Shown: positions 7,677 through 11,350 of the stretch, one piece after another | Numbering within the stretch: position 1 is the first letter of the stretch | Layout: every line of letters starts with the position of its first letter | Source of the DNA: Clostridia bacterium | GTDB taxonomy: Bacteria; Bacillota; Clostridia; Christensenellales; Borkfalkiaceae | Direction: 5' to 3' | NCBI GenBank assembly: GCA_029054485.1 | Contig: JAIDFD010000099.1 | Location: 1-11,352, forward strand | Length of the DNA: 11,352 nucleotides | The notes under the pieces: model-generated | What the model was told of the DNA's origin: nothing | The model's database searches: none | The model's input: the letters and a program-made list of their open reading frames with translations, nothing else | Made by a program: the position numbers and the translations under genes

Positions 7677-7705
7677 ATTTTAACACAAGTAAATTTATTT
7701 TGCAA
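7677..7705 (-). promoter_or_regulatory. Promoter of the GH3 operon, start site almost at the ATG
   Basis: On the minus strand TTGCAA (7700-7705) and TAAAAT (7677-7682) are 17 bases apart. Predicted transcription start is about 7670, four bases before the ATG at 7666, leaving no room for a ribosome binding site. It sits directly downstream of the DUF378 terminator. Confidence 0.68.
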
Positions 7706-7710
7706 CACGC

Positions 7711-7745
7711 AAAAAAAACGTTCCCGCTTAAATGGGGAACGCTTT
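7711..7745 (-). terminator. Rho-independent terminator of the DUF378 gene
   Basis: Minus-strand stem AAAGCGTTCCC (7735-7745) pairs with GGGAACGTTTT (7715-7725), 11 bp including one G-U, loop of nine bases, followed by a U-run (7711-7718). It starts five bases after the stop codon at 7750-7752 and insulates the GH3 operon. Confidence 0.9.
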
Positions 7746-7749
7746 AAAC

Positions 7750-7989
7750 TTATTGAACTTCTTTCTCGCGGTTTTTTACATTGAGCCTTAATCCGTTACC
7801 TGAAATGATGGGTGAGATTATAAGCCATATCGCCGCCAGCGTAATCAGAACGTAGACAATAATCGAGCCTACCGAGCGCGGACCCTGAAAAATCCAGCCA
7901 ACGAGATTGAATCCGAAGAGACCGTAAAGTCCCCAGTTGAGCGCGCCCGCAAGGACGAGAACGTAAGAAATTATGTTTGCTATTACCAT
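7750..7989 (-). CDS. DUF378 small membrane protein
   Basis: 79 residues, two predicted transmembrane helices (about 4-26 and 41-62), and a basic/acidic tail LNVKNREKEVQ likely in the cytoplasm. The segment GALNWGLYGLFGFNLV followed by a Gly/Ser-rich loop and IIVYVLITLAAIW matches my memory of the DUF378 family (B. subtilis YuzA type), which has no assigned biochemical role. The length is typical. The start ATG is well supported by AAGGAG (7998-8003). It is monocistronic: its own terminator follows at once. Upstream lies the structured RNA element with a terminator ~55 bases before the ATG, so the gene either has its own promoter or is reached by read-through of that terminator. Confidence 0.85.
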   Translation of the reverse strand: MVIANIISYVLVLAGALNWGLYGLFGFNLVGWIFQGPRSVGSIIVYVLITLAAIWLIISPIISGNGLRLNVKNREKEVQ

Positions 7990-8007
7990 ACCTTTTTCTC
8001 CTTAAAA

Positions 8008-8037
8008 TCAGTATCGGTATTATCGGAATAATTATTC
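8008..8037 (-). other. Palindrome and tandem repeat upstream of DUF378 (possible operator)
   Basis: GAATAATTATTC (8026-8037) is a perfect 12-bp palindrome. Next to it, TATCGGTAT and TATCGGAAT form a tandem near-repeat (plus strand, ~8012-8029). They lie between the upstream RNA's terminator and the DUF378 ribosome binding site, where a promoter or operator would be expected. A TTGAAT ... GATACT pair with an 18-base spacer overlaps it, a weak promoter candidate. No regulator can be named. Confidence 0.35.
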
Positions 8038-8042
8038 AAGGA

Positions 8043-8074
8043 CAAAAGAAAAGACGCGTCTTGCGACGCGCCTT
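8043..8074 (-). terminator. Rho-independent terminator of the structured RNA
   Basis: On the minus strand AAGGCGCGTC (8065-8074) pairs with GACGCGTCTT (8051-8060), 10 bp with one G-U, closed by a GNRA tetraloop GCAA (8061-8064) and followed by a U-rich tail TTCTTTT (8044-8050). Confidence 0.85.
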
Positions 8075-8222
8075 GCAAAGCTATCTCTTTCAGGTTACCA
8101 CACCATCTAATTTTATCCGCGCAGAGCAAATATATAGAGAAAGAGATAAACGTTGCCGAACGTTAATCCCGCCTGCGTATTTTTCCGAACCGCGGGCCCG
8201 GAAGGATTGTAGATAATGTGGT
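8043..8222 (-). ncRNA. Putative structured RNA, ~180 nt, with closing helix and pseudoknot
   Basis: The predicted transcript starts at 8222, seven bases after a consensus -10 box, which is also the first base of a 13-bp helix (8210-8222 with 8097-8109, two G-U pairs). Within it lie a hairpin (8199-8203 with 8183-8187) stacked on AATCC/GGATT (8204-8208 with 8165-8169), with a 13-nt one-sided internal loop. A hairpin AACGTT-CGGC-AACGTT (8149-8164) abuts these helices. Immediately next, 8139-8148 pairs perfectly over 10 bp with 8082-8091, outside the closing helix, making a pseudoknot. Seven bases later comes the terminator. I see no open reading frame with a ribosome binding site. It could be a stand-alone small RNA or a leader acting on the DUF378 gene. 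I could not assign a family; the raiA-type RNA of Clostridia and 6S RNA are candidates to test. Confidence 0.62.
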
Positions 8223-8228
8223 GAAAGT

Positions 8229-8257
8229 ATTATATCATACAATTTCAAAGCTTTCAA
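8229..8257 (-). promoter_or_regulatory. Near-consensus promoter of the structured RNA
   Basis: TTGAAA (8252-8257) and TATAAT (8229-8234) on the minus strand, spacer exactly 17 bases, with TG one base upstream of the -10 box (extended-type). Predicted start is at A 8222. It lies only 34 bases after the hpt stop codon, and no hpt terminator is visible between them. Confidence 0.85.
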
Positions 8258-8290
8258 GCCTTTTTATCATATAAATTTAATCATTGGCAA

Positions 8291-8839
8291 CTATTTTTCG
8301 TAAACGCTTCTCTTTAAAATGCCAATGTAGGGAAGATGACGGTACTGCTCGTTGTAATCAAGCCCGTAGCCGACAACGAACTCGTTTTCTATTGGGAAGC
8401 AGTTATAGTCGGACTTTATGTCGTACTCGCGCCTTTCGAATTTGTCCAGAAGAGTAACTATGCACACCGAAGCCGCGCCGCGCTTTAAAAGCAAATCTTT
8501 AAGGCAGGCAAGGGTAAAGCCGCTGTCGATAATGTCCTCTACGATAATCACGTCCCTGCCCTTCACGTCTCTGTCAAGGTCTTTTTTGATATTCAGCTTA
8601 CCAGATGAAACCGTGCCCGAGCCGTAGGACGAAACAGCCATAAAATCAAGTTCTACAGGCATCGATAAAAAGCGGATAAAGTCAGAGTAGAAAATTATAC
8701 TACCCTTTAAAATTCCCACAACGAGCGGACACTTGTCCTTGTAAACCTCGTCCACCTGTAAAGCCACTTCCTTTACGCGTGCGCGCAACTGCTCGTCTGT
8801 CAGCATTATGCGCTCGCAGTCATTATGCAAATCGTGCAT
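8291..8839 (-). CDS. hpt: Hypoxanthine(-guanine) phosphoribosyltransferase
   Basis: 182 residues, normal family length (~175-185). It makes IMP and GMP from hypoxanthine or guanine plus PRPP in cytoplasmic purine salvage. Visible motifs are LVVGILKGSIIF (39-50, the PPi loop region), the flexible-loop segment SSYGSGTVSSG (70-80), the PRPP-binding signature VIIVEDIIDSGFTL (97-110; Glu101, Asp102, Asp105), TLLDKFERR (Lys133, base recognition) and FVVGYGLDYNEQYRHLPYIG near the C-terminus. The ATG has AAGGAG six to seven bases upstream. It is the last gene of the tilS unit, 28 bases after the MIF-like gene. Linkage of tilS with hpt is common in Firmicutes, though ftsH, often next, is absent here. 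Confidence 0.96.
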   Translation of the reverse strand: MHDLHNDCERIMLTDEQLRARVKEVALQVDEVYKDKCPLVVGILKGSIIFYSDFIRFLSMPVELDFMAVSSYGSGTVSSGKLNIKKDLDRDVKGRDVIIVEDIIDSGFTLACLKDLLLKRGAASVCIVTLLDKFERREYDIKSDYNCFPIENEFVVGYGLDYNEQYRHLPYIGILKRSVYEK

Positions 8840-8867
8840 ATCATTCTCCTTAAGTAAAAAAATTTAT

Positions 8868-9209
8868 TTAAAAGTTTGTGCCGTTCCAGCCCCAATCGTT
8901 CACACCGTGATAGGTTACGTAAACCGACCTGCCGTCTATGCCAAGCTCTTTTTCCAAAATATCGCAAATAGTTCCCGTCATTTTTTCATACAGAGAACCC
9001 GCAGCCGAACCGAATAAACTTACCGAAACGTATGCGCCCTCTTCAAGTTTTTTACCCGCGAAATACAGGTCGTATCCGTCGTTAATTCCCACCATTAAAT
9101 AGCTCTCGGTCTTGTGCAGAATAGCAACCGCTTTGCCGAGCTCGCTCTTTAATTTATCCTTTTGTCCGTCCGATAATTTTTGCGTAAGTTTACAGTCGAT
9201 AAAAGGCAT
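8868..9209 (-). CDS. MIF-like tautomerase (macrophage migration inhibitory factor family)
   Basis: 113 residues, the size of animal MIF (~115) and nearly twice that of 4-oxalocrotonate tautomerase. It starts Met-Pro, and Pro2 becomes the N-terminal catalytic base after Met removal. Other family landmarks are Lys33 in LHKTESYLMVGI (equivalent to MIF Lys32), the strand GAYVSVSLFGSAAG (58-71) and the C-terminal block VYVTYHGVNDWGWNGTNF, which closely resembles the MIF end (VYINY...VGWN-STF). The protein should form a trimer with keto-enol tautomerase activity towards phenylpyruvate-like compounds; no signal peptide, but animal MIF also lacks one. The ribosome binding site AAGGGGG is clear. It lies between an unrecognised gene and hpt in the tilS unit. 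Its role there is unknown. Confidence 0.88.
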   Translation of the reverse strand: MPFIDCKLTQKLSDGQKDKLKSELGKAVAILHKTESYLMVGINDGYDLYFAGKKLEEGAYVSVSLFGSAAGSLYEKMTGTICDILEKELGIDGRSVYVTYHGVNDWGWNGTNF

Positions 9210-11168: not shown

Positions 11169-11245
<77 letters not shown>

Positions 11246-11246
<1 letters not shown>

Positions 11247-11268
11247 AAAAAATCCTGCATTTGCAGGA
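11246..11268 (-). terminator. Terminator-like hairpin between the two tRNAs, oriented against them
   Basis: TCCTGC (11253-11258) pairs with GCAGGA (11263-11268) over a four-base loop. The seven A residues at 11246-11252 become a U-run after the hairpin only on the minus strand. On the plus strand it is a plain spacer hairpin between tRNAs. Confidence 0.5.
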
Positions 11269-11272
11269 ATAT

Positions 11273-11350
11273 GGCGACGTAGCTTAGTTGGTCTATAGCG
11301 GCCGGTTCATACCCGGCAGGTCGGCGGTTCGAATCCACCCGTCGCTACCA
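11273..11350 (+). tRNA. tRNA-Met (CAU), elongator type, CCA encoded
   Basis: Acceptor GGCGACG pairs with CGTCGCT (first pair G1-U72), the anticodon arm is GCCGG-TTCATAC-CCGGC, the variable loop AGGTC and the T-loop TTCGAAT; CCA is encoded at 11348-11350. The sequence pattern around the anticodon (TTCATAC) and the ending CGCTACCA match elongator tRNA-Met of Firmicutes. I prefer this to tRNA-Ile2(CAU), whose acceptor usually reads GGACC-like and whose loop is CTCATAA. Oddities: a C-A mismatch in the middle of the T-stem (GGCGG/CCACC), a long D-loop and a weak D-stem. Total length is 78 with CCA. Confidence 0.88.

Follow-up and report, generated by a model that had tools for sequence, protein, structure and literature searches.

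c-di-GMP often controls surface proteins, upstream of which its riboswitches occur many times in a genome, a likeness to the RNAs described here. T-box leaders choose between a terminator and an antiterminator, a trait that they share with the present leader family. raiA RNA (RF03072) is likewise structured, with a model of about 200 positions, and is present in the same order as the DNA analyzed here. The window, which is the whole stretch of 11,352 nucleotides that was analyzed (contig JAIDFD010000099.1 of a Clostridia bacterium), carries on its minus strand, between hpt and a DUF378 gene, an RNA that an earlier note had taken for a self-contained RNA gene, either of a known class such as raiA RNA or of a new one. 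Comparison with related genomes indicates that the RNA at 8222–8043 is a copy of a structured leader family outside Rfam that probably acts as a transcription attenuator. As judged from sequence comparisons, this leader RNA family is absent from Rfam and seen only in the order Christensenellales. The features of the window copy and its neighbors are as follows.

8291–8839, minus strand: hpt, the upstream gene, with a phosphoribosyltransferase domain
8252–8257, minus strand: −35 box TTGAAA of the predicted leader promoter, which jointly with the −10 box gives 11 of 12 consensus matches
8229–8234, minus strand: −10 box TATAAT, with a predicted start near 8222
8210–8222, minus strand: 5′ strand of the closing helix P1, ACCACAUUAUCUA; its partner is 8097–8109, and the helix covaries in relatives
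8183–8203, minus strand: GC-rich side hairpin (8203–8195 with 8191–8183), inserted between P1 and P2
8171–8177, minus strand: 5′ strand of P2, CGCAGGC, in the predicted fold; its partner is 8120–8127
8166–8170, minus strand: GGGAU, local competitor of the pseudoknot in the predicted fold; its partner is 8143–8147
8149–8164, minus strand: P3 hairpin AACGUU-CGGC-AACGUU in the predicted fold, carrying the GGCA loop motif of the family
8139–8148, minus strand: 5′ strand of the pseudoknot, UAUCUCUUUC, with coevolution in relatives
8120–8127, minus strand: 3′ strand of P2, GCUCUGCG, in the predicted fold, with one bulged U
8097–8109, minus strand: 3′ strand of P1, UAGAUGGUGUGGU, whose GGUGUGGU end is the best-conserved block among the larger members
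8082–8091, minus strand: 3′ strand of the pseudoknot, GAAAGAGAUA, in the linker 3′ of P1; in most relatives it pairs with the terminator too
8051–8074, minus strand: predicted intrinsic terminator, a stem-loop with a GCAA loop, then an interrupted U tract to about 8044
7750–7989, minus strand: DUF378 (PF04070) gene, downstream, encoding 79 hydrophobic amino acid residues, with the ribosome-binding site AAGGAG

The main elements of the window copy were recovered as the earlier note had drawn them. The two promoter boxes are separated by 17 nt, with TG 5′ of the −10 box; the closing helix comprises 13 bp, two of which are G-U pairs; the 10-bp pseudoknot is perfect, with a predicted duplex energy of −13.5 kcal/mol; and the terminator lies at the claimed position, followed by a U tract that is broken up (TTTTCTTTT). 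Several finer points of that drawing were revised. The one-sided loop, given as 13 nt, has 15 nt in the predicted fold, and CGCAG (8177–8173) and CTGCG (8124–8120), proposed as an extra contact, belong to a predicted stem. The claim that helices abut holds for the P3 hairpin and the pseudoknot strand and fails for P1 and the pseudoknot, between which AACCU (8096–8092) is placed. The pseudoknot strand 8147–8143 is also paired locally with 8170–8166 in the predicted fold, so that the two pairings compete. The region 8222–8043 folds at −66.7 kcal/mol versus −45.0 ± 3.9 kcal/mol for shuffled sequences (z −5.56, 0 of 200), and the structured domain alone gave a z of −5.73. Scans of 7700–8900 yielded two promoter sites versus 2.0 ± 1.6 in shuffled sequences and one terminator site versus 1.4 ± 1.2, with no excess in either case; thus, the assignment of the promoter and the terminator rests on their quality, position, and conservation in relatives.

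The window RNA, which had looked undescribed in the earlier note, matched none of the 4227 families of Rfam 15, with the gathering cut-off of each family taken as the membership threshold. At this cut-off the only matches in the whole window were two tRNAs within 11169–11347, with none over the RNA; these two genes are located on the plus strand at 11169–11243 and 11273–11347, near the window end, beside a gene on the opposite strand that we take to be tilS-like. At E values up to 10, the best match in 7980–8310 had an E value of 0.48. No gathering matches were obtained among 19 related loci with the core, and none over the RNA in 24 divergent loci at E values up to 0.5 or 1. RF03072 matched neither the window nor any of the 37 genomes searched in the genus, including that of the window, and raiA RNA was rejected as the identity; sampling of 24 other genera of the order gave matches in 10, nine of these over the cut-off. 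Gut-1 (RF01706) was matched at locus L274 and in 47 of 200 genomes sampled from the order, with up to 24 matches per genome. These matches look like a dispersed GATATT-rich repeat and not an RNA gene, and Gut-1 was rejected as the identity because the repeat is located elsewhere. In term searches of the main texts of PMC8040213, PMC11109978, and PMC8632094, the family was not found, although a supplementary table may list it unnamed. PMC8040213 made no mention of lipoprotein and had passages on riboswitches and terminators, PMC11109978 had one pseudoknot passage and no downstream-gene terms, and PMC8632094 had no match to the terms used.

A DNA search with the window RNA returned one syntenic orthologue and six short partial matches, five of which were other copies of the family. 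The copies keep a frame of ACCACA ... UAUCUCUU ... GGUGUGGUAACCU-N-AAGAGAUA followed by a terminator, with variable interiors. The exact core pattern occurred 19 times, in nine genomes out of 200 and always within the genus, and had no match in viral contigs. In public genome contigs, the pattern was found in 23 stretches. Seventeen of them carried the core and came from records titled Clostridia bacterium or uncultured Clostridia bacterium, for which record names such as 'Lapin' lead us to guess a gut origin; the other six (L068, L070, L073, L082, L087, and L088) were unrelated chance matches and were discarded.

R1, a covariance model covering the 3′ core together with the terminator, was built with the window copy and two orthologues among its sequences; in the genus it detected 149 places, spread over 50 of 93 genomes. 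The weaker matches included many divergent compact members with a P1-enclosed span of 80–100 nt, and these lack the side hairpin found at 8183–8203 in the window (compact alignment A4). A covariance model of the compact form (R2) detected 92 places in 47 of the 93 genomes and, at E values up to 0.01 in the order, matched 57 of 297 genomes and 27 of 125 genera; at this per-genome threshold, some of the genus- and order-level matches may be due to chance. The union of R1 and R2 in the genus, in which hits with centers within 250 nt were counted as one place, comprised 191 places in 59 of 93 genomes. The richest genomes had 12, 9, 9, 9, and 8 copies, and the window's genome had seven. The counts of genes, terminators, and union places exclude three of the 149 R1 hits: two without the core (G025:C13 and G087:C117) and one with a linker and terminator and no script-found P1 (G067:C43). 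At E values up to 0.001, a compact model (R3) matched the window's genome alone in a 398-genome sample of the phylum, in which genomes of the order were counted together with the rest, and the family thus looks restricted to the order on this sequence comparison. Absences in the large genome searches are soft, since scoring there covered just a few top candidates from each genome.

Since the window copy and its two orthologues had helped to build R1, a sequence profile was rebuilt without them; it matched 8104–8065 with an E value of 1.8e-6. With R3, the top hit lay over the window RNA with an E value of 0.55, and the next hit had an E value of 0.68. By these matches, the window copy is tied to the family through the larger members and not directly through the compact ones. 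It has the defining parts of the family, namely, P1, GGCA, the 10-bp pseudoknot, the linker AACC, and the terminator, and the order hpt-RNA-DUF378 is kept in three genomes. A −10-like box was located at P1 in 138 of the 149 relatives, with at most one mismatch in 130, as counted by a P1-finding script that favored P1 choices beside such a box.

The earlier note had named compensatory change in the long helix and the pseudoknot as its own test, and such change was present in relatives for both. In 97 distinct members, P1 pairs 9–12 were paired in 91–96% of cases versus 41–46% with shuffled partners, and both sides had changed in 44–58 of the 97 members, with 58 of 97 at one pair. This set was drawn from the 108 of 149 records having both the ACCAC and GTGGT anchors and was aligned at the outer end of the helix; as the search was anchored on the ACCAC/GTGGT block, the invariance of the block is partly due to selection. 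In 30 compact members, double changes were found at seven of nine P1 pairs. The alignment used for them, A4, contains 30 of 32 compact records and was not fitted to R2, unlike A5 and A6. In the same 30 members, the joint score of P1, P2, and the pseudoknot was 0.391 versus 0.206 for shuffled sequences (0 of 500), and slid versions scored at most 0.217; P2 is poorly aligned in these members, with pairing in no more than 64% of cells. Across 68 sequences from the order, the pseudoknot strands paired at −10.9 kcal/mol with their own partners versus −8.8 ± 0.24 kcal/mol with swapped partners, uncorrected for kinship, and the pairing types included GUAUCUC:GAGAUAC, CUUCUC:GAGAAG, and AUGCUUC:GAAGCAU. 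The unpaired bases that are conserved comprise T-N-AAT, which follows the 5′ strand of P1, a loop of the form GG-N-A, and AACA 3′ of the helix.

In most members, the linker is also complementary to part of the terminator, namely its 5′ arm and loop, with varying letters, as in CAAUCGGA:UCCGAUUG, CAUUGAGA:UCUCAAUG, and CAAUUAAGAGA:UCUCUUAAUUG. The duplexes averaged −14.1 kcal/mol with the own terminator versus −9.9 ± 0.29 kcal/mol with swapped ones in 115 distinct sequences, uncorrected for kinship; 92 of the 115 reached −8 kcal/mol or better, and 23 were weaker. The set was taken from 138 records in which the script had placed P1 next to a −10-like box; 118 of these had a script-found terminator, 115 of them distinct. 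The pairing of the linker with the terminator overlaps that with the pseudoknot, and the two are consequently mutually exclusive. Both competing pairings coevolve at the level of the family, and disruption of the terminator by the linker is predicted.

An attenuator with a stated direction can be inferred from these two overlapping, coevolving pairings. The comparison shows a promoter-like site ahead of the closing helix P1, which encloses a P2/P3 arm with a GGCA-type loop; the strand that follows P1 forms the pseudoknot with the inner arm and, in most relatives, can pair with the terminator (5′ arm and loop) instead. In the attenuator model, when the pseudoknot is formed, the linker would be held, the terminator would fold, and the gene would be off; when it is absent, the linker would open the terminator and the gene would be on. 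Because the pseudoknotted state corresponds to off, a small molecule or protein stabilizing that fold would be the off signal. The best reading of the family is a class of cis-acting transcription attenuator, and a candidate orphan riboswitch, for surface-protein genes.

The genes behind the leaders were examined in the genus. A same-strand gene with a ribosome-binding site was called downstream in 132 of 146 members, at a median distance of 25 nt after the modeled terminator end and at 20–27 nt in 69 of the 132; in the window, the predicted promoter is followed by the RNA and then by DUF378. No downstream gene was called in the other 14, some of which end at the limit of the stretch or contig or have a TTG start. 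Among the products of the 132 genes, 75 are lipoprotein-like, 41 have another signal or membrane N-terminus, and 16 have neither, so that 116 look exported by a crude hydrophobicity rule on the N-terminus. The same rule called 8 of 80 hpt-neighborhood genes and 3 of 21 upstream genes exported, these control genes being called more strictly (closed, at least 100 amino acid residues). The window DUF378 protein was not called exported by this rule. A Pfam search of 122 of the 132 proteins, cut to 350 amino acid residues, found BspA-type leucine-rich repeats in 25, Listeria-Bacteroides repeats in 6, DUF378 in 3, and bacterial Ig-like domains in a few, as counted among the 25 of 43 families listed.

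Further elements were observed around the leaders. A palindrome close to ACCACAATATATTGTGGT starts 95–98 nt upstream of P1 in 27 of 146 loci (examples are L091, L093, and L121), some of the 146 having too little upstream sequence for it to be seen; it resembles a transcription-factor operator and was not found at the window copy. A second foldable conserved element (CCACGTCATCTG ... CAGAGAACCTCTCTTA ... GC-rich hairpin) is located in the interval between the terminator and the gene in 10 of 146 loci, including L091, where it is downstream of the terminator, G010:C145, and G063:C188, and the loci scanned yielded no match to it at the Rfam gathering cut-offs. In L050, L059, and L064, another terminator-like hairpin, sharing the TCTCTTTGGGAGA core of the first, is present between that one and the gene. 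The first codons of the gene are complementary over 10–15 nt to the P1 3′ strand and linker in L114, L115, L118, L195, L199, and L214, with matched letter changes such as GCGTGG/CCACGC and GTGTGGTGAC/GTCACCACAC. This complementarity was detected in 6 of 132 called genes versus a mean of 0.56 and a maximum of 3 in 200 swaps, and was also seen by eye in L188, L197, and L203, which have TTG starts.

The attenuation step would be the same if the leader were bound by a protein, or sensed temperature or ion state, instead of a small molecule, and we regard this reading as possible, if somewhat doubtful. The genes behind the leaders share no single pathway, and therefore point to no obvious metabolite, and the palindromic, operator-like site at near-fixed spacing in 27 of 146 loci fits a protein regulator nearby; set against these points, the conserved unpaired bases, together with the pseudoknot, bear a resemblance to a ligand pocket. 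A cyclase for c-di-AMP is encoded in 86 of the 93 genomes of the genus, and this near-universal occurrence decides nothing on c-di-AMP as a signal.

The window copy departs from the family in the strength of its linker-terminator duplex. The duplexes of this copy and its two orthologues were −5.3, −5.3, and −3.4 kcal/mol, respectively, and that of the window copy is bulged and reaches −10.8 kcal/mol when the U tract is counted. Thus, a coevolved terminator-disrupting pairing was not found for the window copy (−5.3 kcal/mol), which would mainly terminate or be controlled differently. Because it is without a strong antiterminator pairing, it may be a derived, mostly terminating member. With that pairing weak or missing here, the claim of a self-contained RNA gene, which fails for the family as a 5′ leader by comparison, could still apply to the window copy alone; that copy would then be a free-standing small RNA of about 180 nt, trans-acting or protein-binding, with DUF378 incidental. 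The near-consensus promoter and terminator of its own would fit such an RNA, as would the weak antiterminator pairing in all three copies and the distance of 57–61 nt from their terminator end to the DUF378 start, versus the family median of 25 nt. We nevertheless consider it unlikely, since the relatives are leaders of same-strand genes in 132 of 146 cases, the gene order around the RNA is conserved among three genomes, and no separate DUF378 promoter was scored in the scan of 7700–8900.

A c-di-GMP riboswitch, or a near variant of one, is a very improbable identity for the family. The multiple copies in single genomes and their usual position before genes for predicted exported proteins would fit that assignment, but no known c-di-GMP model matches the window or the 19 related loci. 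A GGDEF protein was found in 40 of the 93 genomes of the genus and is absent from the window's genome, which is 97% complete and has seven copies of the RNA, and from 31 of the 59 RNA-bearing genomes. Both the absence of GGDEF and the lack of model matches disfavor c-di-GMP as the ligand. A mobile or selfish repeat landing near genes by chance, which several copies per genome with variable interiors might suggest, is highly implausible and was rejected on the compensatory change, given also that the copies differ nearly everywhere outside the conserved motifs, keep the promoter-like box and terminator along with the compensatory pairs, and lie mostly upstream of same-strand genes, and that Gut-1, the repeat near one copy, is unrelated and has no match in the window's genome.

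Returning to the attenuator reading, we consider evenly poised the wider proposal that an order-wide, unrecognized riboswitch class runs a cell-surface protein program, with an ancestral pseudoknotted sensor of 80–100 nt in up to 12 copies per genome, a linker for which the aptamer and the terminator compete, joined in one lineage by the first codons, and a signal other than c-di-GMP. If true, the leaders, which occur in 59 of 93 genomes within the genus and in 27 of the 125 genera sampled in the order, would constitute a major control layer for the surface of these bacteria, and the question arises of which signal sets the surface program in bacteria known here only from metagenome assemblies. 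If the complementarity between the first codons and the leader is used in the one lineage that has it, control there would gain a further, unusual layer. With a length of about 110 nt, the compact members are of a size suited to in-line probing and ligand screens.

Among described systems, T-box leaders (RF00230) differ from the present family in that their model has no match at the RNA; one sub-threshold T-box was detected in locus L111, away from the RNA. A close likeness, of a general kind, is to riboswitches that act through a transcription terminator and an antiterminator: both are 5′ leaders with a conserved folded domain including a pseudoknot, mutually exclusive pairings of a linker, an intrinsic terminator, and a ribosome-binding site soon after. 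The present family differs from them in that no Rfam class matches over its RNA and in that it precedes diverse predicted exported proteins.
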